A DNA stretch of 64,000 bases. Origin: Bacteroidales bacterium (GTDB taxonomy: Bacteria; Bacteroidota; Bacteroidia; Bacteroidales; JAAYJT01). Below the pieces are notes generated by a model. The model had not been told where the DNA came from. It was given only the letters and a program-made list of their open reading frames with translations, and made no database searches. Positions 43,878-59,563 of the stretch are shown one piece after another. Numbering within the stretch: the stretch's first letter is position 1; the number at the start of each line of letters is the position of its first letter. Location: assembly GCA_014860575.1 (NCBI GenBank), contig JACZJK010000057.1:1-64000 (forward strand), given 5' to 3'. Both the position numbers and the translations under genes were made by a program.

Positions 43878-44641
43878 AACCGTAGCGTATTTTTCACATC
43901 AATAAGTTTAGCAACAATGCTTAGGGCAATTTCTGCCGGAGTTTCAGCATAGAAAGAAATACCGATAGGCATGTCCACAAAGTTCAACTGATCTTCGGTC
44001 AGGATATTTTCAGTTAACAGGCGTTTACGGGCTTCGGCTACTTTTCGCTTGCTGCCGATCATGCCCAGGTAAGCGAGTTTTTCTTTGGCCAATTTCCCTA
44101 GGAGATTCTCGTCGTATTCATGCCTGGGTGTTGTGATCACAACAAAATCACGGGCGCTGAAGTTGATTTTTGCCAAAGATTGAACATAATCATCAACAAT
44201 GCATTTGGCATAAGCGCTTTCAAATTCCTTGTAAATTTCGGACCTGTGGTCAATAAAGATCACACTGAAACCAAACTCCCTGGCGAACTTTCCTACTTCA
44301 CGACCAACATGGCCGGCACCGAAAATATAGAGTTTCAGTTCTTCAAAGAAAGGTTCAAAATAAATTTCCATATTGCCCCCGCAATGCATTTGAAGATCGT
44401 CTTCGAGCTGATATTTTTTCTTGAAAGGTTTACCTGATTCAAGCGCCAGCAATGTTTCAGCAATAGCCTGCATCTCTATCGAACCACCGCCAATGGTTCC
44501 CATGATGCTGCCATCATTGAAAACGATCATGCGGGCGCCTTCTTTTCGTGGTGTTGAACCTTGGGCTTCGGTTACGAGACAGAGGACAAAAGGCTTTCCC
44601 TGCCGCTGGAGTTCAGGAAGTTGATAAAGGATATCTTTCAT
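43874..44641 (-). CDS. xdhC: XdhC-family molybdenum cofactor maturation protein
   Basis: 255 residues from ATG 44641 (MKDILYQLPELQRQGK). The N-terminal XdhC/CoxI domain has GSTPRKEGARM and GTIGGGSIE; the C-terminal Rossmann domain has IFGAGHVGREVGKFA and ends with the ETPAEIALSIVA motif. XdhC proteins bind the molybdenum cofactor, aid its sulfuration and insert it into XDH. Its coupling to xdhA supports that role here. Confidence 0.95.
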   Translation of the reverse strand: MKDILYQLPELQRQGKPFVLCLVTEAQGSTPRKEGARMIVFNDGSIMGTIGGGSIEMQAIAETLLALESGKPFKKKYQLEDDLQMHCGGNMEIYFEPFFEELKLYIFGAGHVGREVGKFAREFGFSVIFIDHRSEIYKEFESAYAKCIVDDYVQSLAKINFSARDFVVITTPRHEYDENLLGKLAKEKLAYLGMIGSKRKVAEARKRLLTENILTEDQLNFVDMPIGISFYAETPAEIALSIVAKLIDVKNTLRL

Positions 44642-44749
44642 TATTTGAGTATAGGTAATTCTGCAGACAGGCAAAAATAGGTAAAATCAAAGCATAATAT
44701 CACGCAAAAGCGCTTATTCTGAAGCGAAGGGCAGTAGAGGCGCTTACGT

Positions 44750-45556
44750 TTAGCCTGTAGTTGAATTCACCTCTTTGAGGAACCTCTTTTTTATTAAATT
44801 CCTTCGTAATTTTCCTGGCAGGAAAAGGTTAATCACCAGCAGGAATCTGTTGATTCTTTTGGGTATGATGACTTCTTTCCTGTTCAACATTCCATTGATT
44901 GAAACTTTGGCCAATATGTTCGCTTCAATCTTGGTAAGATTACCAAAAAAACCATGTGCTTTTATTCTGGTAAAAGTGCCGGAATTGGTTTCAACTCCAT
45001 TCGGACAAACCACACTTACCGAAATATTGGATTGCGCAAGTTCACTGGAAAGCGCCTGGCTGAAGCTAAGCACGAAAGCCTTCGAAGCTGCATAAACGGC
45101 CTTATATGGTATTGAAAAGTAAGCGGCCATGCTTGCAATATTGAGTATATAGGCTTTGGGGTGGATTTCGAGCAAGGGTATAAACAATTGAGAGAGCAAA
45201 GCCATTGCCCTGATATTAACCATGATGCGGGTATCGGTGTAGGCCAATTCAGATGATTTAAACACTCTTGAGCCCGCGAGCCCAGCATTGTTGACCAGCA
45301 CATTAACCTTGTAATCACTTGCAACACACCATTTATAAACTAACTCTGGACCATCAATCATGGCCAGGTCAACTGCGAACGTGTGAACTAAAACATTGAA
45401 TTTAGCGGCAATCTCATTGGCAGTTTCTTCGAGCTCCTTACCGGGCAAGGCAACAAGCAACAAATTCATTCCCCTTGAGGCACAATCATGGGCAATGGCT
45501 TTGCCTATTCCCATTGAACCTCCTGTGATGAGCGCGTAAACTTCAGGTTTTTCCAT
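44750..45556 (-). CDS. Short-chain dehydrogenase/reductase
   Basis: 268 residues from ATG 45556 (MEKPEVYALITGGSMGIG). Cofactor motif TGGSMGIG at 11-18, NNAG at 89-92, and the catalytic Ser142 with Y155-AAS-K159. The C-terminus is basic and hydrophobic (FLLVINLFLPGKLRRNLIKKRF), as in membrane-associated SDRs acting on lipids (17-beta-HSD/3-ketoacyl reductase-like). It overlaps the upstream epimerase gene by 14 bases, so these two form one unit. Substrate unknown; a lipid ketone is a guess from the tail and the neighbourhood. Confidence 0.85.
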   Translation of the reverse strand: MEKPEVYALITGGSMGIGKAIAHDCASRGMNLLLVALPGKELEETANEIAAKFNVLVHTFAVDLAMIDGPELVYKWCVASDYKVNVLVNNAGLAGSRVFKSSELAYTDTRIMVNIRAMALLSQLFIPLLEIHPKAYILNIASMAAYFSIPYKAVYAASKAFVLSFSQALSSELAQSNISVSVVCPNGVETNSGTFTRIKAHGFFGNLTKIEANILAKVSINGMLNRKEVIIPKRINRFLLVINLFLPGKLRRNLIKKRFLKEVNSTTG

Positions 45557-46535
45557 TGTTCTTGATCCAATCAATTGTTTTTGTAAGACACTCCTTAAGC
45601 GGTGTTTGTGTATAGCCGATTTCACTCATTGCTTTCAGGGAATTCACACGCCAATTATAATTAAATTTTCTCATTAGTCCTTTGGTTATAAACGGTTTAA
45701 CTCCAGTCAACCTATTTACCAACATTGCCAGATCAGAAGCAAAGTAGATAGGCGACAAAGGAACTTTCAACATTAAACGTCTTTTTCCTGAAATTTCGCC
45801 TAATAGTTTAAAAAAATCATTGTAGCTGATGTTTTCTCCACCTAATAAATATTTCTCCCCGGGCTTACCTTTTTCCATTGCCAGTACATGGCCGTTCACA
45901 GCATCATCAATAAACACATAATTACCAACACTATTGCCATCGCCAGGAATAATCCTCCACGTGCCGGACATGTATGCGGCAATAAGTTTGGTAACGCTGT
46001 TGCTTGGGTTCAGAACACCCGGGCCATAAACACGGGTTGGGTTCACGATTCTGATGTTCAGGCCCGATTTTAAAAACTCAAGTGCCATTTCCTCTGCAAT
46101 AGCTTTGGTACGTTCGTATTCAATAAAGAAATCTATTTGCCGGATGGATGTTTCTGAGACTTCATTACCATCGAGCGATGGCCCGAATACGCCGGCGGTG
46201 GAAGAAATAACAATGTCTTTTATACCGGTTTCCATAGCAGCGTTCAGCACATTCAATGTTCCGGTCACATTGAGTTCGTAAATGCGCGATTCATCTTTGA
46301 CCCAAACCTTAGTAAAGGCAGCCATATGATAAATCTGCTGGCAGTCTGTCATTGCATTTTTCAAACTATTGTAATCAAGGATATCTCCTTTGAATAAATG
46401 AATATCCGGATGTCGTAAAATAATGGCTTTGCTTTCCGAGCGATACAATGCATGTACCTGATGTCCAGAACCCGCAAGCTTTAAACAAAGCTGCGATCCT
46501 ATAAAACCTGTAGCGCCAGTTACAAAGGTTTTCAT
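45543..46535 (-). CDS. NAD(P)-dependent epimerase/dehydratase, 3-beta-HSD/OleD-like
   Basis: 330 residues. Extended SDR with the cofactor motif GATGFIG at 7-13 and the catalytic pair in EYERTKAIAEE. Its sequence pattern (NVTGTLNVLNAAMETG, NPTRVYGPG, VFIDDAVNGHVLAMEKG) resembles dihydroflavonol reductase/3-beta-hydroxysteroid dehydrogenase-type enzymes, the same broad family as OleD (52935-53909). It lies 7 bases after the CPBP protease gene and overlaps the next SDR. Substrate unknown. Confidence 0.87.
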   Translation of the reverse strand: MKTFVTGATGFIGSQLCLKLAGSGHQVHALYRSESKAIILRHPDIHLFKGDILDYNSLKNAMTDCQQIYHMAAFTKVWVKDESRIYELNVTGTLNVLNAAMETGIKDIVISSTAGVFGPSLDGNEVSETSIRQIDFFIEYERTKAIAEEMALEFLKSGLNIRIVNPTRVYGPGVLNPSNSVTKLIAAYMSGTWRIIPGDGNSVGNYVFIDDAVNGHVLAMEKGKPGEKYLLGGENISYNDFFKLLGEISGKRRLMLKVPLSPIYFASDLAMLVNRLTGVKPFITKGLMRKFNYNWRVNSLKAMSEIGYTQTPLKECLTKTIDWIKNNGKT

Positions 46536-46542
46536 TCTTTAA

Positions 46543-47235
46543 TTATTTTCTTAGCACTTTCATTTCAGGATGGACCCTCAGTGAAAACCATTCATTGCTT
46601 AAAGCCATCACCACATGCACCACAAAGGCAATCAACAGATTTCCGGTAATCAGGGTGAGATAGCAAAGCAGGATTCCAAGTGGAATAGCGCCCAATGCTT
46701 CTGTTTTTCCTTTTGGAATATGCACCAATGAGTATATGGAAGTATTGATTGCGATGGCAGCCACCATGCCCAGCTCACTGTATAAAGCAAAGAGCAAAAA
46801 CCCGCGAAACATAAATTCATACGCTGCAAGGTACAGTATCCAAGTAATTGCACTGATGAATATTGTGGAAGCGCTCCAAACAGGTATGCGTATCTGCGGA
46901 TACATAGCAAGGTTTGACTTTTGGGGTGCATTTAAAAAATTCATAGTAATAATTGCAACAGATAGTATTGCAATCCACATCCATGAAAGAAATCCAGCCT
47001 GGGTTCCAAACCCAAAGTCCTTTAATCGGAAGTCTGCCATGAAGAATATTGCAATCAAGGGAAGTCCGCCAAATAAAAGAAAGCCAAGTAAGCGGTTAGC
47101 CACAACCTGGTCAAAAGATGCATTTCGATAACCAAGCAGGGTTTCAACTCTACGCTTAAATGCTAGCGAACCACTACTGAAATGGTAAATCAGGAATGCG
47201 CAGGTAGTGACGGCTACGGCTATGGCTATGGTCAT
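46543..47235 (-). CDS. CPBP-family intramembrane metalloprotease
   Basis: About 230 residues from ATG 47235 (MTIAIAVAVTTCAF); a TTG at 47253 would add six. Several membrane segments are evident. The CPBP motif is YEFMFRGFLLF near 145 (one Glu, where most members have EExxxR), followed by YSLVHIPKGK with the motif-2 His and a final NLLIAFVVHVVMALSNEW. CPBP (Abi) proteases cleave membrane or prenylated substrates, but many bacterial members are of unknown role. First gene of an operon with the epimerase and SDR; a good promoter lies upstream. Confidence 0.85.
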   Translation of the reverse strand: MTIAIAVAVTTCAFLIYHFSSGSLAFKRRVETLLGYRNASFDQVVANRLLGFLLFGGLPLIAIFFMADFRLKDFGFGTQAGFLSWMWIAILSVAIITMNFLNAPQKSNLAMYPQIRIPVWSASTIFISAITWILYLAAYEFMFRGFLLFALYSELGMVAAIAINTSIYSLVHIPKGKTEALGAIPLGILLCYLTLITGNLLIAFVVHVVMALSNEWFSLRVHPEMKVLRK

Positions 47236-47280
47236 TGGATGAGGTTCTTTCAAAATCGGGGTTGGTTAAGCGCGTTGGTG

Positions 47281-47309
47281 CAAAAATATGATTTTTAAAA
47301 CATGACAAA
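47281..47309 (-). promoter_or_regulatory. Promoter for the CPBP-epimerase-SDR(-xdh) operon
   Basis: On the minus strand TTTG (47306-47309), 17 bases, TATTTTTG (47281-47288), then CA. This fits TTTG/TAnnTTTG with slightly short spacing. It separates the operon from the MocA-like gene upstream. Confidence 0.5.
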
Positions 47310-47365
47310 GATGATTTGATATTTAGAAACGGAAATATTAGTGTAATGATTTGTCTTAATTAGCC

Positions 47366-47965
47366 TTAGAATCTTCTCATTCTCCAATTTTGGTAATCTT
47401 TTAATGTATTAATGTTTGTTAGCATACCAAAATCATTAATCTCGATTGTTGACTTTATGAAACGATTCAGAAAAACTTTCAGAATCATGTCATCCGCCTT
47501 TTCATTGATTATTTCGTGCACGATCATTTTTCTTATTAGAACCGGATGGCCACCTTTACCACGAAACACTGGGTAAGTGTAATCAGTATTACCAACATGA
47601 TCAAGTAAGGCAGTAAGCCAATCAACGCTTATATCCGGATTATCAATATTTTGAAGAAAAACAAAATCTTCATTTTGTAAACTCATCAACCCGGTTTTTA
47701 CTGAAGCAAATCTTCCTCTTTCAGGGTACGCATTCACAACAACCTCAACTTTGCCAGGGAATTGAAACAAGTTTTGTTTAATAATTTTCTCGCCTCGTGG
47801 ATTAACAACAACAACAATTTTCCCGCACCCAAACTGGTGGTACTGATGAACTATGTGCTCCAGGAAAGAAACTCCAGGCGTGAATTCTAGTGCAAATTTT
47901 TCCTGTCCCATTCGTTCAGAAAAACCGGCAGCAAGCAGCAAGACTGAAGTTGTCTTGTTTTTCAT
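47366..47965 (-). CDS. MocA-like molybdenum cofactor nucleotidyltransferase
   Basis: 199 residues. The nucleotide-binding start LLLAAGFSERMGQEKFALEF is the LAAGxSxRMGxxK motif; further features are VVNPRGE, NIDNPDISVDWLTALL and the YPVFRGKGGHPVLI segment typical of MocA/MobA-like proteins. MocA attaches CMP to molybdopterin, giving the MCD cofactor used by xanthine dehydrogenases. Proximity to xdhC-xdhA-xdhB on the same strand supports this, though a CPBP-epimerase-SDR operon lies between. It is divergent from oleB. Another sugar or phospholipid nucleotidyltransferase role is less likely. Confidence 0.8.
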   Translation of the reverse strand: MKNKTTSVLLLAAGFSERMGQEKFALEFTPGVSFLEHIVHQYHQFGCGKIVVVVNPRGEKIIKQNLFQFPGKVEVVVNAYPERGRFASVKTGLMSLQNEDFVFLQNIDNPDISVDWLTALLDHVGNTDYTYPVFRGKGGHPVLIRKMIVHEIINEKADDMILKVFLNRFIKSTIEINDFGMLTNINTLKDYQNWRMRRF

Positions 47966-48516
47966 ACTTTTATGAAATTTGAATTATAATATACCGAACC
48001 AAAAAAATAATTTTAGAAATTGCCCTTAATATATTGGATTCTTTCTTTCTATCAGCTAATTATTCACAATCTAATACAAAATATGTTCATTCAGGTTTAT
48101 CATTGGCAAGCACCTATCTTGCATCAGTGATAAAATTCATTTTAATAAAAATACTGCCCAAAATTTCAGTGATGCTCACAATAGTAAACATAATCATTTT
48201 AGTAAATTCAATTTAAGGAGCAGAACCCAAGTTTTCAGTTACATCATAATTGACATTTTTTAGATTAGCTAAATATAAGGTATTGAAGTAAGAAATGTTA
48301 CATTGAAAGTTTTCGCAGGAGCTAAGGCAAAAATAAAGGAAAAGCAATTATGCTTTAAACTCAATATTATTATCGCATAAAATTTCTTATCTTTGAAGGA
48401 TAAATCAATCATCCTACTTTCTTCATCAGGTTTACTCAGGAACTCTGCATTCAACTTGCTCGCCTTGGTACAAATAATTGTGATAGTTCATTGCTTATCA
48501 ACAATTGCCTTAAAAG
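47966..48516. other. AT-rich divergent intergenic region before the ole operon
   Basis: About 550 bases, very AT-rich. A 60-codon frame from a TTG near 48034 and a 61-codon frame near 48393 show no family features and are not called. The only signal found is the candidate oleB promoter element at 48388. Confidence 0.5.
48388..48395 (+). promoter_or_regulatory. Candidate -7 element for the ole operon
   Basis: TATCTTTG followed by AA fits TAnnTTTG; it is 121 bases before the oleB ATG, implying a leader of about 115 bases. No TTTG at the -33 position. Confidence 0.35.
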
Positions 48517-49410
48517 ATGTCTCTGAAGAAATCAAAAAATGGCGAAAAATATCCACTTCTGAGCGGATATCCCTGTAAATCTAACTTTATAGGAGTAGAA
48601 GGCATTCAAATTCATTATATTGCAGAAGGTGAGATAGGGTCACCAACCGTTCTGTTACTCCACGGTGTTCCAGGCTGGAGTTACACCTACCGAAATATTA
48701 TACCGATATGTGTTGCCAGTGGATTGCGAGTAATCGCTCCTGATTTACCAGGTTTTGGGAAATCAGATAAACCTTTGGATAAAAATTTTTACTATCTGGA
48801 AAAGCTCGTTACAGTAATTGAGAGCTTCATCCTGAAACTGAATCTGGAAAGAATCTTTTTATTCTCTCATGACTGGGGTGCGATAATCGGTATGATTATA
48901 GCCGCTAAGAATCCGGTTTTGTTTTCTGGAATCATAGCTTGCAATGGGTTCCTTCCAATGGCCGGTCAAATGATTCCTTTGTCGTTTCGGCTGTGGCAAT
49001 GGTTTACGCAATATTCACCATATATCCCGGTTGGAAAAATTATCAACTTTGCTACAAGCAGAGGGCTTTCAAAAGTGGAACAGGCTGGGTATGATTACCC
49101 GTTTTCAAATGAAAGAGAAAAAATAGCCATAAGAATTCTTCCGGGACTCATCCGGGAAATCACAAAAGAACCAGGAATACCAGCAATCAATAAATGCTGG
49201 AATGAGCTGAAGAAGTTTGATAAACCCTTCTTAACTGTTTTTAGCAACAACGATCCCATCAGCCGGGGTGGCGAAAAAATACTTCAGTCATTGATACCTG
49301 GAACCAGAGATCAACCCCATATGGTCCTGAAGGGGAGCCATTTTTTACAGGAAGATGCTCCTACCGAACTGGGATTAATTATCAGAGAATTTGTAAAAAG
49401 AAATAAATGA
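48517..49410 (+). CDS. oleB: OleB-like alpha/beta hydrolase (beta-lactone decarboxylase candidate)
   Basis: 297 residues of the haloalkane-dehalogenase-like alpha/beta hydrolase fold. Oxyanion motif LLHGVPGWSYTYRN (48-60), DLPGFGKSDKP, nucleophile Asp119 in FSHDWGA, and catalytic His275 in KGSHFLQED. In known ole clusters OleB uses this Asp to decarboxylate a cis-beta-lactone to a cis-olefin. Alone it could be called a haloalkane dehalogenase, but it is the first gene of a five-gene operon with OleA, OleC and OleD homologues, with a four-base overlap (ATGA) to the next, so the OleB role is preferred. The actual product remains inference. Confidence 0.82.
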   Translation: MSLKKSKNGEKYPLLSGYPCKSNFIGVEGIQIHYIAEGEIGSPTVLLLHGVPGWSYTYRNIIPICVASGLRVIAPDLPGFGKSDKPLDKNFYYLEKLVTVIESFILKLNLERIFLFSHDWGAIIGMIIAAKNPVLFSGIIACNGFLPMAGQMIPLSFRLWQWFTQYSPYIPVGKIINFATSRGLSKVEQAGYDYPFSNEREKIAIRILPGLIREITKEPGIPAINKCWNELKKFDKPFLTVFSNNDPISRGGEKILQSLIPGTRDQPHMVLKGSHFLQEDAPTELGLIIREFVKRNK

Positions 49411-50456
49411 TTGCAGGAAGTAAAATAGAAAGCATTGGTGTAAGGCTTCCTGAAAAAAGTGTTGCTACCTCTGATATAATTAACAGGTTAAGAGTATCTA
49501 AGCCAATCAGGTTAGAGTTATTGACGGGGATAGCAAAACGAAGAGTTTGCTCCGAAAATGAAGATTCTTTAACTCTTGCTGTTGATGCAGTCCACGATTG
49601 CCTGAATCATTCAAAATTTGAAGCAAAGGATATTGAAATGATCATTTGCTGTTCCATTTCAAGGTTCGTTAACGGTTTGAACCATTATTACGAGCCACCG
49701 CTTTCCTTGCTTATTAAGCAAAAATCCGGATGCATCAATGCTGTGAGCCTTGACATTTCAAATGCCTGTGCAGGTATGATGACCGGTGCATATATTGCCA
49801 ATAACTTTATCTCGCGGGGTGTTGTTACTAATTGTCTTGTAGTTAGTGGTGAATTTATTACAAGCATTAGCAATAATGCAGAACAAAGAGTAGATTCACC
49901 AAAGCATTTAGAACTGGCCTCACTCACTGTTGGTGATGCCGGTGCAGCAGTTATTTTATCGCAAACTGAAAATATTGAGGATTGCTTTTCGGCCTTTGAA
50001 ATGGTAACACTAAGCCAATACAGTGATTTGTGCCTTGGTAATCAAAGTACAAGCTTTCCAGGTGCTGTCATGAGAACCTGTATAAAGAAAATTCATGAAG
50101 TGTCTATCCTGAATGCACCCCCACTTATTGAAAATGCATTAAAGCTTGCAGGATTAAGGATGAACCAGATTGACTTTTTGATCCCCCATCAAACGGCAAA
50201 AGCTTCCATACAGTCGGGGGCAAAACATTTTGCTCAATATTTTGGAGAAGAACCCGGAGAAATCGTTATTAATCTCGATGAAACCGGAAACACAGCCTCA
50301 ACAACACATTTTACAACGCTTTGCAAGTACCTGAATGAAAACCGGCTTAAGGAGGGTAATAAGATAATGTTGGTGAGTTTTGCATCAGGTCTTGTTATTG
50401 GAATTGCGGTTTTCACCATACACGATTTAGTAAAAAAATATGGGAACAATCATTAA
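49407..50456 (+). CDS. oleA: OleA-like ketosynthase III (acyl-CoA head-to-head condensing enzyme)
   Basis: 349 residues, KAS III/thiolase fold. The catalytic triad is complete: Cys121 in DISNACAGMMTG, His261 in LIPHQTAK, Asn295 in DETGNTAST. It also has the OleA-type Glu96 in HYYEPPLSLL, aligned with the Glu (E117 in Xanthomonas OleA, DYLEP) that acts as base across the dimer interface. OleA joins two fatty acyl-CoAs into a beta-keto acid. It overlaps oleB by 4 bases and the next ketosynthase-like gene by 17 bases, so it is co-translated with the degenerate homologue, likely as partner subunits. Confidence 0.85.
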   Translation: MIAGSKIESIGVRLPEKSVATSDIINRLRVSKPIRLELLTGIAKRRVCSENEDSLTLAVDAVHDCLNHSKFEAKDIEMIICCSISRFVNGLNHYYEPPLSLLIKQKSGCINAVSLDISNACAGMMTGAYIANNFISRGVVTNCLVVSGEFITSISNNAEQRVDSPKHLELASLTVGDAGAAVILSQTENIEDCFSAFEMVTLSQYSDLCLGNQSTSFPGAVMRTCIKKIHEVSILNAPPLIENALKLAGLRMNQIDFLIPHQTAKASIQSGAKHFAQYFGEEPGEIVINLDETGNTASTTHFTTLCKYLNENRLKEGNKIMLVSFASGLVIGIAVFTIHDLVKKYGNNH

Positions 50457-51321
50457 ATCAGTTGCTTTTCACAGACCCTGCTTTCGAACTGGTATTTTGA
50501 AGTTAACTTCCCAGGCAGCGAGCAGGTGTCTAAGCTATGCTGGATTGAGTATGGCAAATGTTGGAATGTTGATAAATACTACCGTTTATACAGAAAACCA
50601 TCTTGCAGAACCAGCACTCTCTGCACTGATTCTGAATAAATTACAAATATTAAAGGTCAAGAAAAACAACAAATACAGAAATTCAGGAAAGATTTTTTCC
50701 TTCGACTTGCATGGTGGTAGTACCGGTGTAATGAGCGCTATGCAAATCATTGATGGATTTATTCAATCAGGGCAAATCGAAAATGGACTGATAATAGCTG
50801 GTGATACCAAACCTCGCGCAGGTCATACATTGAATTACAATTATGAAGATAATGCAGGCGCCATACTTCTTTCAAATGATCCGCGGATCAAAGGGTTTGA
50901 AAAATTTAAAACTTACACCTATCCAGAATTTGAAAGTAGTGTTATTAGTTCGATCACATGGGGTTCCGGAAAATTCAGGTTTGTAATAAGTCAAAGTGAA
51001 AACTACCTCAAAGATTGCCTGAAATGTGTCGAGATTTCACTTCAGCAATTTTTTATGAAGACAAATTCAGGCTGGGATCAAGTTGATTTGATCGTTACCT
51101 CACAAAGCCCGCCTGGATTTTCATCATTGCTTATGAAGAAGTTTGATTTAGAAGGCAAAATTCTACCTATAAATGGAAAAAGTGAAATCTTTACTGCCGG
51201 TGTAGTTTTTTCTTTGAAAAAGGTTTTTACAAACGGAAAATTCAAAGCAGCAACAAATATCCTGTTTGTAACAGTCAGCTCTGGAATTACGGTATCGCTT
51301 TCGTTATACTTAAATCAATGA
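50440..51321 (+). CDS. Degenerate OleA-like ketosynthase, probable partner subunit
   Basis: 293 residues, about 55 shorter than its neighbour but clearly the same fold (VGMLINTTVYTENHLAEPALSALIL; FDLHGGSTGVMSAMQIIDGF; GLIIAGDTKP; AGAILLSND). The catalytic Cys is replaced by Ser94 (HGGSTG), the His by Ser221 (VTSQSPPG), and the Asn motif is gone, so it cannot be a normal condensing enzyme. The OleA glutamate is kept as Glu57 in LAEPALS. In lipstatin (LstA/LstB) two OleA homologues form a heterodimer with divided labour; here the same arrangement is inferred. It overlaps oleA by 17 bases and precedes oleC by 9. Confidence 0.82.
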   Translation: MGTIIKSVAFHRPCFRTGILKLTSQAASRCLSYAGLSMANVGMLINTTVYTENHLAEPALSALILNKLQILKVKKNNKYRNSGKIFSFDLHGGSTGVMSAMQIIDGFIQSGQIENGLIIAGDTKPRAGHTLNYNYEDNAGAILLSNDPRIKGFEKFKTYTYPEFESSVISSITWGSGKFRFVISQSENYLKDCLKCVEISLQQFFMKTNSGWDQVDLIVTSQSPPGFSSLLMKKFDLEGKILPINGKSEIFTAGVVFSLKKVFTNGKFKAATNILFVTVSSGITVSLSLYLNQ

Positions 51322-51330
51322 AAGGCCAGA

Positions 51331-52938
51331 ATGAAAAATATTCCTGATTATTTATTCGATTTTGCCCAGTCAAACCCTGACAAGCCGGCTTTGCTCCATC
51401 CTGATAAAATAAGTTTTTCGGGACTATGCCTCCTTACAAACAGATATGCTGCCGGATTTCAGGATATTGGAATTACCCAGGGAATGAAAACCATTGTCCT
51501 GGTAACCCCCGGAGTTGACTTTTTCGCAATTACATTCGCACTGCTTCGTATTGGTGCAGTGCCAGTTATGATTGATCCGGGAATGGGTAACAAAGCAATG
51601 GCATATGCCCTGTCGAAAACGGAATCCCGTGCATTTATCGGAATACCAAAAGCCCACCTGCTACGCTTAATGTACCCTCACGCTTTCCGACATGTTGAAA
51701 TATTCGTGACGACCGGCTTTTCATTAAGATGGCAAGATCACAGCCTAAAGGCCATCCGGAAATCGGAATGCTTCAATTATGAGATTTGCCATGCTATGCC
51801 TTCGGATGTGGTGGCGGTATTTTTTACCAGCGGTAGCACTGGCCCGGCAAAAGCTGTAATTTATCAGAATCGCATGATTGATGCACAAATTAAGTACTTG
51901 AGAAATCACTTTAATTACAAATCTGACGATATTGATCTTTGCACATTTCCCCTGATTGGACTGCTTGTAATTTGTCTCGGGCTTTCTATTGTTTTGGCCG
52001 ATATGGACATGACACATCCATTACGCCTGAAACCTGATAAACTTATCATGAATATTGAGCAATTTAATTGTTCAAGTATGTTCTGCTCACCACTGGTTTT
52101 GAGACTAATAACTGATTATTGTATCGCTAATAAACTACATATCAAATCATTAACAAGAGTTTTAACTGCTGGTGCACCTGTTTCTCCAGCATTATTGAGA
52201 AATATTAAAAGAGTGCTTCCGGAATGTTCTGTTGTTCACACACCATTCGGTTCAACAGAAGCTCTTTCAGTTACAGATGCAGTGGATTCAGAATTACTGG
52301 CTGTTTATGGAAACTCTGAAAACTATTTTAACGGAATTTGTGTAGGCTACCCATTAAAAGGCATCAGGTTAAAGATTATTAAAATTACAGATAATCCTGT
52401 TGAAACAATTGAAAACGTTCAGGAGATGAATGCCGGAGAAGTAGGAGAAATAGTGGTAAATGGCCCGAATGTAACCCAAAGCTACCTGGCTGATGATTGG
52501 GCCAGTAAAATTTCTAAAATAGCAGAAAGCAATAGTTCTTTACTATGGCACAGGACCGGTGATGTTGGAAAAAGCGATGAAAACGGAAGAATCTGGTATT
52601 TTGGAAGAAAATCGCAGAGGGTTGAAACAGGCACAGGAACTTTATTCACCATACCCTGTGAAGCAGTGTTTAACCAGCATCCGGCAGTTTTCCGTTCTGC
52701 TTTAGTTGGTATCAAATCAAATTCTCAAACAGAACCAGTAATTTGTATTGAGTTGAAAGCAGGAATAAAAAAGTCAGAACATCTTGTAAAAGAACTACTT
52801 AACCTCGCACAGGAAAATAAGTGGACAAAGAAAGTATCAACTGTGCTGTTTCATAAAAATTTTCCTGTTGATCCGCGACATAACGCTAAAATTTTTCGTG
52901 AGAAACTATCCGAATGGGCTAAAATTCAATTAAAATGA
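51331..52938 (+). CDS. oleC: OleC-like beta-lactone synthetase (ANL superfamily)
   Basis: 535 residues of the AMP-forming ligase family. Motifs: FFTSGSTGPAKAV (P-loop, 165-176), TPFGSTEALSVTDA (about 298), LWHRTGDVG (about 416), and the OleC-typical C-terminal stretch IWYFGRKSQRVET, FTIPCEAVFNQHP and DPRHNAKIFREKL. The FxxHPxVFRSALVG and RHNAKIFREKL blocks point to OleC rather than a generic fatty acyl-CoA ligase. OleC turns a beta-hydroxy acid into a beta-lactone using ATP. It starts 9 bases after the degenerate ketosynthase gene and overlaps oleD by four bases. Confidence 0.9.
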   Translation: MKNIPDYLFDFAQSNPDKPALLHPDKISFSGLCLLTNRYAAGFQDIGITQGMKTIVLVTPGVDFFAITFALLRIGAVPVMIDPGMGNKAMAYALSKTESRAFIGIPKAHLLRLMYPHAFRHVEIFVTTGFSLRWQDHSLKAIRKSECFNYEICHAMPSDVVAVFFTSGSTGPAKAVIYQNRMIDAQIKYLRNHFNYKSDDIDLCTFPLIGLLVICLGLSIVLADMDMTHPLRLKPDKLIMNIEQFNCSSMFCSPLVLRLITDYCIANKLHIKSLTRVLTAGAPVSPALLRNIKRVLPECSVVHTPFGSTEALSVTDAVDSELLAVYGNSENYFNGICVGYPLKGIRLKIIKITDNPVETIENVQEMNAGEVGEIVVNGPNVTQSYLADDWASKISKIAESNSSLLWHRTGDVGKSDENGRIWYFGRKSQRVETGTGTLFTIPCEAVFNQHPAVFRSALVGIKSNSQTEPVICIELKAGIKKSEHLVKELLNLAQENKWTKKVSTVLFHKNFPVDPRHNAKIFREKLSEWAKIQLK

Positions 52939-53909
52939 GGGTATTGGTAACAGGTGGCGGCGGTTTTGTTGGACTTGCACTGGTGCAGCGACTTATTGAA
53001 TTGGGCTACGACGTTACATCCTTTTCAAGAAGCCTGCATACTGAGCATTTCGATCTTAAAGTAAAAATTATCAGGGGCGATTTAATGAACCCATCTGAAA
53101 TTCATTCAGCTTGCAAAGGAATGGATGTAGTATTTCATAATGCTACCAAAGTTGGCTTTTGGGGTTCATATCGCGATTTTTACAACACCAATGTTCTTGG
53201 TACATCCCATCTGATTGATGCTTGTATCCATAATGGAATTAGTAAGTTGATCTATACAAGTTCAGCAAGTGTTGTTTATAGTGGAACTGATCTTGAAGGA
53301 GTTAATGAGTCAATTGGTTATCCTTCCAAGCCTGTTTCCCATTATACTTCTACCAAAGCTGTTGCAGAACAATTGGTTTTAAGTGCGAATGCCGAAACTT
53401 TCAAAACTATTGCCTTGCGCCCACACCTGATATGGGGGCCTGGTGATACACAATTGCTTCCAAAAATTATTCAGCGGGCAAAATCAGGGAAATTAAGGAA
53501 GCCTGGAAACAAAGATCATCTGATTGACACAACTCACATCAACAACCTGATCAATGCACTTTTACTGGCTATGAAAAAAATGGATGAAAATCCAATAGTA
53601 TGTGGAAAAGCATTTTTTATAACTAATGGCAAACCAGTATTGGTGTGGGATTTCATTAATGAAATTATTCATTCTGCTGGCTTACCCCCGGTTCAAAAAA
53701 CAATACCAAAACCGCTTGCGTTTTTCACAGCATGGATATTAGAAAGGTTCTATTTTTTACTGTGCATAAAATCAGAGCCTTACATCACACGGTTTCTGAT
53801 TCAGGAATTATGTTCTCATCATTGGTTTGATATTTCTGCAGCAAAGAATTTATTGGGGTATACTCCAATTGACTATTCCAACTGTGGTGTCGAGATGCTG
53901 CTGAATTAA
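52935..53909 (+). CDS. oleD: OleD-like NAD(P)H-dependent 2-alkyl-3-ketoalkanoic acid reductase
   Basis: 324 residues, extended SDR. Cofactor motif GGGGFVG at 7-13; catalytic Y137-TST-K141 in SHYTSTKAVAEQ; OleD-like segments FHNATKVGFWGSY, ALRPHLIWGPGDTQLLP, FFITNGKPVLVWDF and EPYITRFLIQELCSHHWFDISAA. OleD reduces the beta-keto acid from OleA to the beta-hydroxy acid used by OleC. Four-base overlap with oleC; last gene of the operon. ygfK begins 119 bases downstream on the same strand. Confidence 0.9.
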   Translation: MRVLVTGGGGFVGLALVQRLIELGYDVTSFSRSLHTEHFDLKVKIIRGDLMNPSEIHSACKGMDVVFHNATKVGFWGSYRDFYNTNVLGTSHLIDACIHNGISKLIYTSSASVVYSGTDLEGVNESIGYPSKPVSHYTSTKAVAEQLVLSANAETFKTIALRPHLIWGPGDTQLLPKIIQRAKSGKLRKPGNKDHLIDTTHINNLINALLLAMKKMDENPIVCGKAFFITNGKPVLVWDFINEIIHSAGLPPVQKTIPKPLAFFTAWILERFYFLLCIKSEPYITRFLIQELCSHHWFDISAAKNLLGYTPIDYSNCGVEMLLN

Positions 53910-53961
53910 TGACCACAAGAGTATATCTTTTGGGATTATCATGTTCTATCTCGCCTATTCT

Positions 53962-54009
53962 AGAATATTCTGTTTCTTCTGCGTTCAATTTAATCTTGCT
54001 AATTTAGCA
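53962..54009. promoter_or_regulatory. Two short inverted repeats upstream of ygfK
   Basis: AGAATATTCT (53962-53971) is a perfect 10-bp palindrome and TGCTAA-T-TTAGCA (53997-54009) a 6+1+6 inverted repeat ending 19 bases before the ygfK ATG. They could be operator sites for the purine operon; nothing shows this directly. Confidence 0.3.
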
Positions 54010-54028
54010 GAAATTTAAGCCGCACATC

Positions 54029-57000
54029 ATGCCATCCGATAAATTCTTTCCTGCTCCCCTACCCGTCTTACTTCAAATCATTCTTAATCAATACAATCGC
54101 AATAAAAGCATTTTGGGGATTACAGAGAATTTATTTTTCCGACCCGTTATTTCTGATCCGTTCAGGACAAATCGCTACGAGCGTTTACTGGAAACGCCTA
54201 TCGGACTTGCGGCTGGGCCTCACACCCAGCTTTCGCAAAACATTGTGGCAGGTTGGCTCACAGGTGCAAGATTCATCGAACTTAAAACCATTCAAACCCT
54301 TGATGAACTGGAAATCTCAAAACCCTGCATTGACATGCAGGACGAAGGCTATAACTGTGAGTGGTCGCAGGAATTGAAGGTTGAACAATCTTTTGATCAA
54401 TACCTCAATGCCTGGATTCTGATCCATGTGCTGAAAGATCATCTCAGAATCGGGTCAGCGGAAGAACCGGGTTTTATTTTCAACATGAGCGTGGGATACG
54501 ACCTCAAAGGCATACTGAGCGACAATGTACAATGGTTCCTGGAAAAAATGCAGAATGCCACTCAAGAACTAGCGGCGAAAATTGAGGAAATTAAACCTAT
54601 CTATCCCCGCATCACACAATTGAAAATTAGTCAGAAATTATCGGATAATGTAACGCTTTCCACCATGCACGGTTGTCCGCCGCACGAAATTGAAGCCATT
54701 GGCACTTATCTGCTAAGAGACAAAAAACTGCACACAACTATTAAGCTCAACCCAACTTTATTGGGCAAAGAAGAATTGCAAAAGATCATGAAGAATTCAG
54801 GATTCGAAACCAATATTCCTGATAAGGCATTCGAACACGACCTGAAATACGATGATGCAATCAAAATCATTTCATCACTTGATGAAGCTGCGTCCATTCA
54901 CAATCTGCACTTTGGGATAAAACTCACAAATACTCTTGAAAGTGAGAACCACAAGGATGTATTTCCGCCTCATGAAAAAATGATGTACATGAGCGGCAGG
55001 GCGCTGCATCCGGTTTCGGTGGCGATTGCAAACAAAATTCAGCAGGACTTTAATGGCCGCCTCAATATATCATTCAGCGGAGGTGCTGATGCTTTTAATG
55101 TGACTGATTTGATAGCTTCCGGCCTGGATCCGGTCACTGTCTGCACCGACCTGCTGAAACCTGGCGGCTATGGCAAGCTACATCAATATATTGAAGAGCT
55201 GCGCAATGATTTTGCCCAGAAAAAAGCACATAGCATCGAAATATTTATATCGGCCCGGGCAGGTCATCCCGAAGCCGGTCTGAACCAAGAAGTGCTGACA
55301 AACCTTGAAAATTATGCTGAAAAGGTGTCGCAACAAGAGCGCTACAAGAAAACCAACTTGCATGACCCCAGCATCAAAACCACACGCCCATTAGGTTGGT
55401 TCGATTGCATCCATGCACCCTGCGAAGACACCTGCCCAACCAACCAGGACATTCCAAATTATAATTATCACACCGCAAACGGTGAATTTCAAAAAGCCGC
55501 TGCGGTGATCAGGCAAACCAATCCTTTCCCGCAAACTACCGGCATGATCTGCGACCATCTCTGTCAGTTAAAATGTACTCGCCTCAACTACGATCACCCG
55601 GTTCTGATCAGGGAAATAAAGCGTTTTGTGGCTGAGCGGGCAATAATGGGCGACCCGAAGCTGCCAGATCAGGTAAAGCCCGTAACCGGCAAAAATGTGG
55701 CGGTGATTGGCGCCGGGCCTTCCGGATTATCCTGCGCTGCTTTCCTTGCCCGTGCCGGATTCCAGGTTGAAATTTTTGAAACCAAATCAAGGCCTGGTGG
55801 CATGGTTTCCTCTGGCATTCCCTCATTCCGCCTGACTGATGAAGCCATAAAGAACGATGTCGCTGACATTGAATCGCTTGGCGTGAAAATTCATTATGAT
55901 GAGGAAATCAATCAATCACGCTTCGAAAAACTGAGAAATGAATACGACTACATCTATATTGCAGCAGGCGCTCAGCGATCCAGCAAACTCAGGATCGAAA
56001 GTATAGAAGCTGCTGGAGTAATTGATCCTTTACACTTTCTTGAGGATCTGAAAGATGGAAAGAAAGTCTCGTTGGGAACCAATATTGTGATCATCGGCGG
56101 AGGCAATACAGCCATGGATGTGGCCCGAACGGCTTTCAGGCTGGTAGGCAAAAACGGAAAAGTCACCATCGTTTACCGCCGAACCATTAAGGAAATGCCG
56201 GCCGATATGGGTGAAATCAAAGCCGCACTGGCCGAAGGCACGGAAATTATTGAACTGGTTGCGCCTGTTCGTGTGAACACCAAAGATGGAAAAGTTACCT
56301 CAATCACATGCATCAAAATGGCGTTGGGCCAGAAAGATGCCAGCGGCAGGCCAACACCTGTGAAGATTCCCGGTTCAGAATTTGAAATAGAAGCTGACAC
56401 AATTATACCGGCTGTTGGACAGGAACTCGCCATTGATTTTTGTGATCCTACCTTATTGCGAACCAAATCAGGTTCGTACGAAACACAAATTCCCCGGATT
56501 TATATTGGCGGTGATGCCATGCGTGGCGCTTCCACTGCAATCAACGCCATTGGTGATGGACGGAAAGTAGCACAGGAAATCATTGACCGGGAAAAAATTG
56601 CGTTCAGCACAAAACCTGAAAATTTAAGAATGCCGCAGGATATAAACTGGCATGCGATGATGCGGGCAACGAAAATGCCAGCGGTTGAAGTGAGGGAAAC
56701 ATCGCTGGAAGGCCGGAAAAACTTCAACCTCGTGTCTTCTACCATCAGCGAGGAAGAAGCCATGTATGAAGCTTCACGCTGCCTGCTCTGCGACGAAGTT
56801 TGTAATATTTGTACCACCGTTTGTCCGAACCTGGCATTTCATAGTTATGAGATTCAGCCGATTTCAATACAGCTACAAAAACTGGTTCGCAAAAATGGAA
56901 ACTGGGAAATTGCTGAGGATAATCAGCCCTTTGAAGTAAAGCAGCAGCGGCAGATTCTCCACATCGCCGACTGGTGCAACAATTGCGGGAATTGTAACAC

Positions 57001-57337
57001 TTTTTGCCCATCTGCTGATGCACCTTACAAAGTTAAACCGCATCTATTCCTGAATAACGAAGCCTTTGAGAGTGAAGATGAAGGCTTTTGGCTTGAACAC
57101 GCAAACGGAAAAAGAATCCTGCACAGTAAATCAAAAGGGAAACTAACAAAATTTACCCGGGAAGAAGGCAGATTGATTTATGAATTTGGTAACAATCGTA
57201 TTGTGCTGGATGAAAACAAGATGGAGGTCATTGATTACGAAATTAATAGTTTTGAGGAAGCAGAAATTGAGTTAAGCAAGTTTGCAGAAATGGCTATAAT
57301 TCTTTCTGGTGTGATATCATTTATGGAACGCGAATGA
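54029..57337 (+). CDS. ygfK: YgfK-like flavin/iron-sulfur oxidoreductase ('putative selenate reductase' subunit)
   Basis: 1102 residues, a multi-domain protein. Residues about 1-430: dihydroorotate-dehydrogenase-like barrel (TPIGLAAGPHTQLSQNIV, FIELKTIQTLDELEISKPCID). About 455-555: GltD-like cluster domain (CIHAPCEDTCPTNQDIPN, MICDHLCQLKCTR). About 560-870: FAD and NAD(P) sites (GAGPSGLSCAAFLARAG, GGGNTAMDVARTAF). About 915-1000: ferredoxin-like motifs (CLLCDEVCNICTTVCP, CNNCGNCNTFCP). E. coli YgfK lies with ssnA and xdhD and belongs to anaerobic purine/urate breakdown clusters, so 'selenate reductase' is a weak name. Here it may pass electrons between NAD(P)H and the FAD-less XdhD. The last codons and stop lie at the edge of an inverted-repeat element. 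Confidence 0.93.
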   Translation: MPSDKFFPAPLPVLLQIILNQYNRNKSILGITENLFFRPVISDPFRTNRYERLLETPIGLAAGPHTQLSQNIVAGWLTGARFIELKTIQTLDELEISKPCIDMQDEGYNCEWSQELKVEQSFDQYLNAWILIHVLKDHLRIGSAEEPGFIFNMSVGYDLKGILSDNVQWFLEKMQNATQELAAKIEEIKPIYPRITQLKISQKLSDNVTLSTMHGCPPHEIEAIGTYLLRDKKLHTTIKLNPTLLGKEELQKIMKNSGFETNIPDKAFEHDLKYDDAIKIISSLDEAASIHNLHFGIKLTNTLESENHKDVFPPHEKMMYMSGRALHPVSVAIANKIQQDFNGRLNISFSGGADAFNVTDLIASGLDPVTVCTDLLKPGGYGKLHQYIEELRNDFAQKKAHSIEIFISARAGHPEAGLNQEVLTNLENYAEKVSQQERYKKTNLHDPSIKTTRPLGWFDCIHAPCEDTCPTNQDIPNYNYHTANGEFQKAAAVIRQTNPFPQTTGMICDHLCQLKCTRLNYDHPVLIREIKRFVAERAIMGDPKLPDQVKPVTGKNVAVIGAGPSGLSCAAFLARAGFQVEIFETKSRPGGMVSSGIPSFRLTDEAIKNDVADIESLGVKIHYDEEINQSRFEKLRNEYDYIYIAAGAQRSSKLRIESIEAAGVIDPLHFLEDLKDGKKVSLGTNIVIIGGGNTAMDVARTAFRLVGKNGKVTIVYRRTIKEMPADMGEIKAALAEGTEIIELVAPVRVNTKDGKVTSITCIKMALGQKDASGRPTPVKIPGSEFEIEADTIIPAVGQELAIDFCDPTLLRTKSGSYETQIPRIYIGGDAMRGASTAINAIGDGRKVAQEIIDREKIAFSTKPENLRMPQDINWHAMMRATKMPAVEVRETSLEGRKNFNLVSSTISEEEAMYEASRCLLCDEVCNICTTVCPNLAFHSYEIQPISIQLQKLVRKNGNWEIAEDNQPFEVKQQRQILHIADWCNNCGNCNTFCPSADAPYKVKPHLFLNNEAFESEDEGFWLEHANGKRILHSKSKGKLTKFTREEGRLIYEFGNNRIVLDENKMEVIDYEINSFEEAEIELSKFAEMAIILSGVISFMERE

Positions 57338-57341
57338 CGCA

Positions 57342-57426
57342 ATAGAACGCGGATGACGCGGATTGAACAGATTTTCGCGGATTTAATCCCTACTTATCCG
57401 CTTGATCCGCATAATCAGCGTTCTAT
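57342..57426. repeat. Inverted-repeat element, unit A (after ygfK)
   Basis: The left arm ATAGAACGCGGATGACGCGG (57342-57368 in full) and the right arm ending AATCAGCGTTCTAT (57400-57426) pair over 27 bp with about six mismatches. A further related copy (GGAACGCGAATGACGC, 57325-57340) overlaps the ygfK stop codon. It occupies almost the entire spacer to the GxxExxY gene. Confidence 0.75.
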
Positions 57427-57440
57427 CAAAAAGTAATCCT

Positions 57441-57824
57441 GTGAATCTGATTGAAAAAGAACTTATTGAGAAAATTATCAATGCATTTTATGAGGTTTAC
57501 AATACCCTCATTTATGGCTTTCTTGAGAAAGTTTATGAACATGCACTATACAAAGAGCTTAACAATAGGGGGTTTCATGTATCAAGGCAGGAGCCGATAG
57601 GAGTATTATATAAAGGACAAAAAGTTGGTGAATACTATGCCGATCTGGTAGTTGAAGGAAAAGTAATCCTTGAGCTTAAGGCGTCAGAGTCAATTTGCGA
57701 CGAGCACAAATACCAATTAATCAATTATTTAAAAGCAACAAATATTGAGGTTGGACTTTTATTTAATTTTGACAGAAAACCTCAATTCGACAGAAAAGTA
57801 TTTCAAAATAAAAACAAAATCTAA
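57441..57824 (+). CDS. GxxExxY-family protein
   Basis: 127 residues from a GTG at 57441 (VNLIEKELIEKIINAFYEVYN). A TTG at 57402 would add 13 residues translated from the inverted repeat, so GTG is preferred. The family signature is seen as YGFLEKVYEHAL, then EPIGVLYKGQKVGEYYADLVVEGKVILELKA, which resembles a PD-(D/E)xK nuclease core (D in YADL, E-x-K in ELKA). The biochemical role of the family is not established. It is set between two of the inverted-repeat elements, suggesting it arrived with or belongs to them rather than to the purine pathway. Confidence 0.85.
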   Translation: MNLIEKELIEKIINAFYEVYNTLIYGFLEKVYEHALYKELNNRGFHVSRQEPIGVLYKGQKVGEYYADLVVEGKVILELKASESICDEHKYQLINYLKATNIEVGLLFNFDRKPQFDRKVFQNKNKI

Positions 57825-57849
57825 TCCGTAAGAATCAGCTAATTTTGCG

Positions 57850-57976
57850 TCATACGCCACGGTGCACAAGTCCGTGTTCCATTTTGGAAACTTTATCCGT
57901 AAGACCGCTAGAAGCGGTCGGACTGTTTTAATTAATTCGCGATCATCCGCTCAATCCGCGTCATCCGCGTTCTATT
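57850..57976. repeat. Inverted-repeat element, unit B (after the GxxExxY gene)
   Basis: Contains CACGG-N9-CCGTG (near 57858-57876), a perfect hairpin GACCGCT-AGA-AGCGGTC (57903-57919), and the right arm CAATCCGCGTCATCCGCGTT (within 57949-57976), but no left arm. The missing left arm is matched by unit A on the other side of the GxxExxY gene. It ends 9 bases before the next start codon. Confidence 0.7.
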
Positions 57977-57985
57977 CAAAAGACT

Positions 57986-59434
57986 ATGAACAACAAACAA
58001 AAAACACTCGAAAACACTATCCAACGCTTCAGGGAGAAAAAGATCATTCTCCCCACTTTTGCTCAAATGCGAAATCCTGAGCTTATCCCTGAAACAATCA
58101 AAACCAAACTTAAAAACATTGGCCTTTGGGATCTTGATCCTCTCAACTTATTCAGGATCACCTGGAAAAACGAACCCAAAGCTTTTGGCGGTGGTTTTGG
58201 AAAGGTCAATTATCTTGAAATTCCCCCTGAGCTCACCGGCATTAAAGCCAGGGTAGTGATGATCGTTGGAAAGTGGTTTCCCACTGGTGCTCACAAAGTT
58301 GGCGCAGCATACGGCTGCCTGGCACCCCGTATTATCCAGGGTGAGTTCGATCCCACCCATCACAAGGCTGTGTGGCCCTCAACCGGAAATTACTGCCGGG
58401 GCGGCGCCTTTGATTCTTACCTGATGGGTTGTCATGCCGTTGCAATCCTTCCGGAGGAAATGAGCCAGGAGCGTTTTGAATGGCTGAAGGAAATTGGCGC
58501 GGAGATTTTTGCAACACCCGGCTGCGAATCGAACGTCAAAGAGATTTATGATAAATGTTGGGAACTCCGCCGAACCAAACCTGACTACATCATTCTGAAC
58601 CAGTTTGATGAGTTTGGGAACCCGACCTGGCATTATCATGTTACTGGTCCGGCGATAGAGGAAGCTTTCAAGGAAGTGAAAACGCCTGGTTCAACATTGA
58701 CAGCCTATGTTTCAAACACCGGTTCGGCAGGCACAATCGCTGCTGGTGATTATTTGCGGGAGAAATACCCGCTGATGAAAGTGGTGGCATCGGAAGCGCT
58801 GCAATGCCCTACACTGCTAAATAATGGCTTTGGCGGGCATCGCATCGAGGGCATCGGCGACAAACATGTGCCCTGGGTTCACAATGTTAAAAATACGGAT
58901 GTTGTTACAGCCATTGATGATGAAGATTGTATGCGACTGCTCCGCCTTTTCAATGAAGCTGCCGGAAAAGAATTTCTTAAAAATGAAGGTGTTGACCCTG
59001 AAGTTGTTGATCAACTGCATTTATTAGGGATTTCAAGTATTGCCAATCTTTTATCGGCCATAAAAACCACTAAATATTTTGAATATACTGAAAATGATGT
59101 AATTATGACCATCGCTACCGACAGTGTTGAGTTGTATCAATCGCGGCTGGAAGAACTCAAAAAGGAACGGGGGGAATACACAGCGCTTCAGTCTGCACGC
59201 GATTTTGAGAAATGCCTGATGGGAACCCAGACTGATAATATGAAAGAACTTTCCTATCAGGATCGCAAGGCTATACATAACCTGAAATATTTTACCTGGG
59301 TGGAGCAACAAGGCAAAACGGTGGATGAACTCAACGCCCAATGGTACGACCCGGATTATTTTGATACGCATTTTAAGATGGCGGATGATTGGGATGTTAT
59401 GATCAAGGAATTTAATGAGAAAACAGGCGTGTAG
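57986..59434 (+). CDS. Fold-type II PLP-dependent enzyme (TrpB/cysteine-synthase-like)
   Basis: 482 residues. The PLP lysine is very likely Lys104 in PTGAHKVGAAYG. The substrate-carboxylate loop is PSTGNYCRGG (131-140), and NTGSAGTIAAG (about 240) is the phosphate-binding glycine loop. An N-terminal extension of about 60 residues and a C-terminal extension of about 120 (FEKCLMGTQTDNMKEL, HFKMADDWDVMIKEF) go beyond cysteine synthase. Elsewhere, purine-degradation clusters carry the PLP enzyme YgeX (2,3-diaminopropionate ammonia-lyase) near ygfK; this protein is a different subfamily but may do a related elimination. Exact reaction unknown. Confidence 0.8.
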   Translation: MNNKQKTLENTIQRFREKKIILPTFAQMRNPELIPETIKTKLKNIGLWDLDPLNLFRITWKNEPKAFGGGFGKVNYLEIPPELTGIKARVVMIVGKWFPTGAHKVGAAYGCLAPRIIQGEFDPTHHKAVWPSTGNYCRGGAFDSYLMGCHAVAILPEEMSQERFEWLKEIGAEIFATPGCESNVKEIYDKCWELRRTKPDYIILNQFDEFGNPTWHYHVTGPAIEEAFKEVKTPGSTLTAYVSNTGSAGTIAAGDYLREKYPLMKVVASEALQCPTLLNNGFGGHRIEGIGDKHVPWVHNVKNTDVVTAIDDEDCMRLLRLFNEAAGKEFLKNEGVDPEVVDQLHLLGISSIANLLSAIKTTKYFEYTENDVIMTIATDSVELYQSRLEELKKERGEYTALQSARDFEKCLMGTQTDNMKELSYQDRKAIHNLKYFTWVEQQGKTVDELNAQWYDPDYFDTHFKMADDWDVMIKEFNEKTGV

Positions 59435-59439
59435 AAGAC

Positions 59440-59554
59440 AATAGAACGCGGATGATGCGGATAAAGCCCGTCCGACTGCTCCAAGCGGTCTGATGGATAA
59501 AATAACTTCAAAATCAGCGATCATCAGTTCAATCCGCGTCATCAGCGTTCCAAT
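59440..59554. repeat. Inverted-repeat element, unit C
   Basis: The left arm AATAGAACGCGGATGATGCGG (59440-59462) and the right arm AATCCGCGTCATCAGCGTTC (within 59527-59554) are inverted. The centre contains GTCCGACTGCTCCAAGCGGTC, close to the reverse complement of the hairpin in unit B. It begins five bases after the PLP gene stop and ends 9 bases before the next ATG. Confidence 0.75.
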
Positions 59555-59563
59555 CAAAATCAA

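Follow-up and report, generated by a model that had tools for sequence, protein, structure and literature searches.

A five-gene operon in the genome of a Bacteroidales bacterium probably encodes the head-to-head coupling of two fatty chains into a long-chain alkene or a β-lactone. It occupies positions 48517 to 53909 of the 64,000-nucleotide stretch analyzed here (the window; GenBank assembly GCA_014860575.1, contig JACZJK010000057.1). On balance we favor a self-contained pathway. In it, a pair of ketosynthase subunits, A and A', would condense the two chains head to head, OleD would reduce the ketone and OleC would close the β-lactone. A haloalkane dehalogenase (HLD)-like protein would then attack the lactone with Asp119 as nucleophile and open it, most likely releasing CO2 and leaving a cis-olefin. 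The route as far as the β-lactone is likely. The olefin is our favored guess for the end product, with the β-lactone itself being possible.

A sequence-only reading of the window had proposed a complete Ole-type operon with OleB and two OleA homologues. Its operon structure, pair of ketosynthase-like genes and Bacteroidota host were borne out. Five plus-strand open reading frames (ORFs) lie where that reading placed them; three junctions overlap, by 4, 17 and 4 bases, and the remaining one leaves a gap of 9 bases. They encode an α/β hydrolase resembling HLD subfamily I in the oleB place (48517..49410), a ketoacyl-acyl carrier protein synthase III (KAS III) subunit A of OleA/LstA type (49407..50456), an LstB-type KAS III subunit A' (50440..51321), an OleC-type β-lactone synthetase (51331..52938) and an OleD-type 2-alkyl-3-oxoalkanoate reductase (52935..53909). 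Pfam and NCBIfam classes in gene order were haloalkane dehalogenase, KAS III, KAS III (weak), CoA ligase/olefin β-lactone synthetase and 2-alkyl-3-oxoalkanoate reductase. Best NCBIfam E-values were 2.1e-84, 7.7e-40, 2.8e-12, 1e-171 and 4.8e-102 for proteins one to five, the first and fourth over their model cut-offs and the other three under. The operon signal is above chance, given these E-values and the identical gene order in 15 further loci. All residues named in the earlier reading are present in the translations: D119/H275 in the first protein, E96/C121/H261/N295 in A, SGSTGPAK and RHNAKIFREKL in OleC, and GGGGFVG and YTSTK in OleD.

The gene order was surveyed by scanning 84,980 species with an A-subunit alignment and two A-type peptide patterns. 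The best 80 of 425 relatives were kept, which makes the survey a sample and no census; L025 and L026 were removed as duplicates of L042 and L028. The order HLD-A-A'-C-D was found in 15 of these best 80, or 16 operons with the window. Titles of the 15 other loci named Bacteroidota in 13 cases, Chlorobiota in one (L033) and only 'bacterium' in one (L035); the HLD of L033 is nearly identical to that of the Bacteroidales metagenome-assembled genome (MAG) L032. At E 1e-6, ORFs flanking the operon had counterparts beside no more than two other operons, although little flank is available on some contigs; the unit therefore comprises the five genes. The operon is rare. Two genomes of the order (G752 and G624) carry it, and OleC-family matches over cut-off were seen in 3/393 genomes of the order and 3/395 of the phylum, the window's genome being counted in both. 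A-type ketosynthases reached E 1e-60 in 2/395 genomes of the class, and OleC reached E 1e-40 in 1/60 relatives, namely the window's own genome. Scans of viral contigs with A' (27 stretches) and of genome contigs with OleC alone (16 stretches) returned no relative among those stretches. In a plasmid search, 13 records, every one from Rhodococcus or Streptomyces, carried A-type proteins, with 33-39% identity.

Profile searches with NCBIfam models bore out the OleC and OleD identities, and we find both sequence-based assignments convincing. OleC scored 571.9 bits on NF006754 (cut-off 478). Its next-best models were two olefin β-lactone synthetases at 462 and 452 bits, both short of the cut-off set for the model (850 and 900). 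OleD matched NF042423 (341 bits) and NF042422 (333 bits) best, both below the cut-off of 580, with the next other model at 125 bits. That cut-off may be too narrow for OleD. The ketosynthase, first HLD, C, D and A/A' mirror trees were quick searches with one support value. In these, the C proteins of the five-gene unit formed one group (support 100; 14/16 operons) and so did the D proteins (support 98; 13/16 operons): the unit shares a common ancestry. C was nearer the Nocardia/Streptomyces type than canonical Ole (branch support 92), and D grouped with canonical OleD, not with Nocardia D. Another NAD-dependent epimerase, scoring 314 bits on the OleD profile, lies on the minus strand at 45543-46535, adjoining a short-chain dehydrogenase/reductase and a CPBP-type membrane protein.

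Xanthomonas OleA is a single homodimer. The condensing enzyme of this operon is predicted to be a heterodimeric pair of LstAB type, encoded by adjacent genes, one product with Cys/His/Asn and the other degenerate with its Glu kept. The second OleA-like gene of the sequence-only reading is indeed ketosynthase-like, but it encodes a degenerate partner subunit without catalytic Cys/His/Asn and not a second full enzyme. Nor is A an OleA in the canonical sense. It scored 122.4 bits on the canonical OleA model NF006720 (cut-off 285) and A' 46.6 bits, compared to 394 to 438 bits for four canonical OleAs. The ketosynthase tree (13/16 operons) resolved three separate groups, canonical OleA (support 100), A (98) and A' (100), with A and A' nearer the Nocardia/Streptomyces type. 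Canonical OleA orthology of A was rejected on these scores and this separate grouping.

Subunit A combines C121, H261, N295 and E96-P97 in one protein; LstA-type proteins do likewise, so this trait does not discriminate them from canonical OleA. Across 83 aligned A rows, Cys was present in 83/83, His and Asn in 82/82 readable rows and Glu in 80/83. The catalytic columns of 80 A' rows held Cys in 0/79 readable rows, His in 0/79 and Asn in 4/79, with Glu-Pro retained in 79/79. E57 and P58 of A' are two of the eight invariant columns in a 26-row A' alignment (Glu 26/26). The A' proteins of L034, L035, L037, L040 and others have a Cys one residue beyond the lost catalytic position (NGGCG, NGACG). 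According to the available part of PMC12141560, activity or solubility depends on C128/H271/N305 of LstA and on E60 of LstB. The same part describes LstB counterparts as widespread next to LstA, and the A/A' pairing itself is therefore already known.

Both halves were found in 77/80 loci, as separate genes in 50 and fused into one polypeptide in 27. Two of the other three loci end at a contig edge (L051, L072), and no A' was seen in the third, L047. For 29 loci, the A tree and the A' tree had 14/26 splits in common (mean 0.2 and maximum 3 in 1000 shuffles); 12/26 were not common to both. Both trees put the window among the five-gene operons, beside Myxococcota and Actinomycetota pairs, with Nocardia/Streptomyces pairs more distant. 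A' was predicted to adopt a complete KAS III fold (predicted local distance difference test (pLDDT) 90.6, predicted template modeling score (pTM) 0.90), and its model matched X. campestris OleA, FabH and PqsD equally well (Z ~31). The model of a fused A-A' protein from a Chitinophagaceae MAG (pTM 0.91, mean pLDDT 85.4) was poor only in linker 357-372, which fits fixed packing of the two halves. The 27 fused loci, this fused model and the mirrored trees are indirect pointers to a physical A-A' heterodimer. Fused A-A' proteins measure ~670-705 residues (e.g. L078:7977-9995), and fusions also occur within ~1714-1785-residue proteins of Mycobacterium, a planctomycete and one unnamed bacterium. A-A' pairs without adjoining main-type OleC/OleD were seen in L039, L041 and L045 (Myxococcales), L050, L053, L054 and L056; another condensation product is possible there.

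The first protein had been called OleB. It falls instead with the subfamily I HLDs, scoring 283.5 bits on NF002043 (cut-off 265), a model over cut-off in 3/3 scanned. Its nearest solved structures are PDB 5esr (223 bits), 6f9o (221 bits) and 4mj3 (203 bits), presumably DccA, DpcA and DmrA. The DhaA group scored ~90 bits; the OleB of canonical cluster L150 matches that group instead (166 bits). The pentad D119, W120, W160, D246 and H275 is intact in 16/16 five-gene operons. V51 stands where OleB has Asn, and W160 is an extra cap Trp; the OleBs of L150, L151, L058 and L017 have the Asn and lack the cap Trp (4/4). Position 51 is Val in 13/15 readable operons, and subfamily I relatives have Glu there. 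HLD subfamily I uses Asp-His-Asp with Trp-Trp and subfamily III Asp-His-Asp with Asn-Trp (available part of PMC6920932), and X. campestris OleB belongs to subfamily III (available part of PMC10503415). The reading of V51 as the loss of a catalytic residue was rejected: with two Trp in the subfamily I pentad, the active site is complete for this subfamily.

A careful tree put the operon HLDs and subfamily I on one side of a branch with support 98/95. Forcing the operon HLDs with OleB cost 28 log units and was rejected by the approximately unbiased (AU) test (p 0.019), which was set after the first tree had been seen. The operon-HLD group itself was not firm in the last HLD tree (56/95; 15/16 operons). 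The protein thus has both the pentad and the tree grouping of subfamily I and neither those of OleB, and OleB orthology was rejected on the missing pentad Asn and the AU test. No second relative with an Asp nucleophile was found in the window's genome, the two other matches carrying Ser; the OleB slot is therefore taken by a protein of another subfamily. The HLD gene lies directly upstream of A in 16/16 operons, and none was found in the fetched flanks of 16 Nocardia/Rhodococcus/Streptomyces A-A'-C-D loci. Other arrangements were also seen. The Syntrophaceae locus L058:8004-13588 combines an A-A' pair with canonical OleB, as an OleBC fusion followed by OleD. Genome G177, of the same class as the window, has a second ole-like layout (L017:7333-10882 and L154:8137-10137), with Asn-type OleB-OleC-OleD beside polyketide synthase/nonribosomal peptide synthetase and desaturase genes and a fused ketosynthase pair ~18 kb off.

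The self-contained pathway is the best explanation because of the OleC/OleD models, the C and D groups, the residue asymmetry of A and A', the invariant E57-P58, the fusions and the mirrored trees. The LstAB precedent with its essential LstB E60 (available part of PMC12141560) and the fused-pair pTM of 0.91 add to this, as does an HLD gene with intact pentad that leads all 16 operons and was not found in A-A'-C-D flanks. Several points weigh against it. The last enzyme is not of OleB lineage, so orthology cannot indicate olefin formation. The glutamate argument is not exclusive to A', since A also has Glu-Pro. Every reaction, the reaction order, the substrates and the product are read from characterized relatives. 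All five genes are intact in 11/16 operons; L040 is truncated by a contig end, and either decay or error in the draft assemblies has left A' frameshifted in L042 and L029, the HLD gene interrupted by a stop in L028 and oleC split in L032.

Alternatively, the end product could be a lipstatin- or nocardiolactone-like β-lactone or a hydroxy acid, with the dehalogenase-like protein hydrolyzing surplus lactone for self-protection or turnover. The nearness of A, A' and C to the Nocardia/Streptomyces type would suit this, as would the absence of the usual OleB lineage and the fact that dehalogenases are hydrolases. However, characterized β-lactone clusters are without such a gene in the available part of PMC7064751, and D sides with canonical OleD; we consider this outcome rather unlikely. 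It is improbable that the first protein is a true dehalogenase or esterase acting on another substrate, leaving the other four genes to make a β-lactone or a spontaneously decarboxylated ketone. Its complete pentad and its solved relatives at 203 to 223 bits are compatible with that role, but its gene overlaps A translationally in the window and keeps its position in all 16 operons. An ordinary oleABCD system with homodimeric OleA and true OleB, which would have the same four activities by name and the same OleC and OleD models, is more improbable still, given the low OleA score of A, the separate canonical OleA group, the absent pentad Asn and the rejected OleB grouping. Two different acyl chains are plausible as substrates. 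We propose more tentatively that Bacteroidota assembled an olefin pathway independently, recruiting a subfamily I HLD, not an OleB, as β-lactone decarboxylase and coupling it to a heterodimeric ketosynthase that would select two acyl chains and so lead to mixed-chain alkenes.

The operon sits in its native genomic context. The contig that contains the window is 172 kb long and belongs to a genome of 4.4 Mb (66 contigs, 95% complete, 1.2% contaminated). The operon is absent from the two same-genus genomes examined. In one of these, G002, a mobA-like ORF (53% over 201 residues) stands beside a ygfK-like ORF (68%) with ~56 bp between matched ends, where the window has an operon-bearing stretch of ~6.0 kb (47983..53995); the other has no ygfK-like match. 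This comparison alone leaves gain or loss of the operon undecided, and the junction repeats examined showed no clear target duplication. GC content at third codon positions (GC3) was 0.324-0.370 in the operon, whereas 37 further ORFs of the window averaged 0.450 (sd 0.042). GC3 alone was rejected as weak evidence of foreign origin, because the mobA-like ORF is also low (0.332) though G002 has a mobA-like ORF at the empty site. Low GC3 and absence from the two related genomes would be expected of a foreign contig or assembly contamination, but a single locus in a same-genus genome matches both sides of the operon, and 13/15 other operons are labeled Bacteroidota; contamination was rejected as extremely improbable. 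Around the operon lies an apparent molybdenum hydroxylase cluster (43874-63354; xdhC-, mobA-, ygfK- and xdh-like ORFs, named by eye). Promoter and terminator scans were at chance level (20 found against 20.0 expected, and 4 against 5.1), and the window holds no tRNA. The Bacteroidota -7 promoter motif is TAnnTTTG. A candidate match, TATCTTTG, lies at 48388-48395, 122 bases upstream of the first start codon.

The sequence-only reading noted that early ole surveys list no Bacteroidota, and the literature agrees. A 2020 survey found ole clusters in 1082 genomes and no putative ones in Bacteroidetes, as far as the available part of PMC7158056 goes. Its OleA search pattern, EPxx[AS]x(14,18)DxxNACL, is matched by the window's A except for the last letter. 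All A rows listed read NACA, and the NACL pattern is therefore blind to this type. The available part of PMC7064751 names three ole contexts (oleABCD, oleBC fusions and oleACD without oleB) and leaves Bacteroidetes unmentioned. That of PMC13170169 reports oleC or oleBC in 46 MAGs, Bacteroidota not being among the phyla named. No report of this five-gene operon was found in open-licence literature, subscription papers being mostly outside the search. A complete candidate pathway for head-to-head condensation is thus placed in a phylum where a broad survey reported none, the difference between NACL and NACA explaining the miss. Its naturally paired ketosynthase and putative lactone-processing step form a combination outside the three contexts of PMC7064751, in the part available. 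The operon offers a way to ask whether a dehalogenase scaffold gave rise to a β-lactone decarboxylase more than once. If true, the pathway would be a further candidate for the biological production of long-chain alkenes in Bacteroidota-rich sediments and waters.

Nocardiolactone-type clusters of Nocardia (A-A'-C-D) have homologous A, A' and C in the same order. They differ in a D on another branch, and nothing resembling a dehalogenase gene was seen in their fetched flanks. These genes would correspond to NltA-D of the published cluster. The LstA/LstB pair of lipstatin biosynthesis (Streptomyces toxytricini) is likewise an adjacent KAS III pair with Cys/His/Asn in one subunit and an essential Glu in the other (available part of PMC12141560). 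The operon's pair lies on another branch, however, and the link was drawn via Nocardia and Streptomyces hygroscopicus loci, not LstA/LstB sequences. Lipstatin clusters are without an OleB-type gene (available part of PMC7064751), whereas the present operon begins with a dehalogenase-like gene. Canonical oleABCD of Xanthomonas and Shewanella type (L150, L151) shares the OleC and OleD families and, likely, Claisen condensation, reduction and β-lactone closure. It differs in its subfamily III OleB, its A-B-C-D order and its single homodimeric OleA (available part of PMC7064751). HLD subfamily I (5esr, 6f9o, 4mj3) provides the nearest solved relatives of the first protein, with the same Asp-His-Asp and Trp-Trp pentad. 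The operon proteins mostly have Val at position 51 where subfamily I has Glu, and their gene stands beside ketosynthase genes in all 16 operons.

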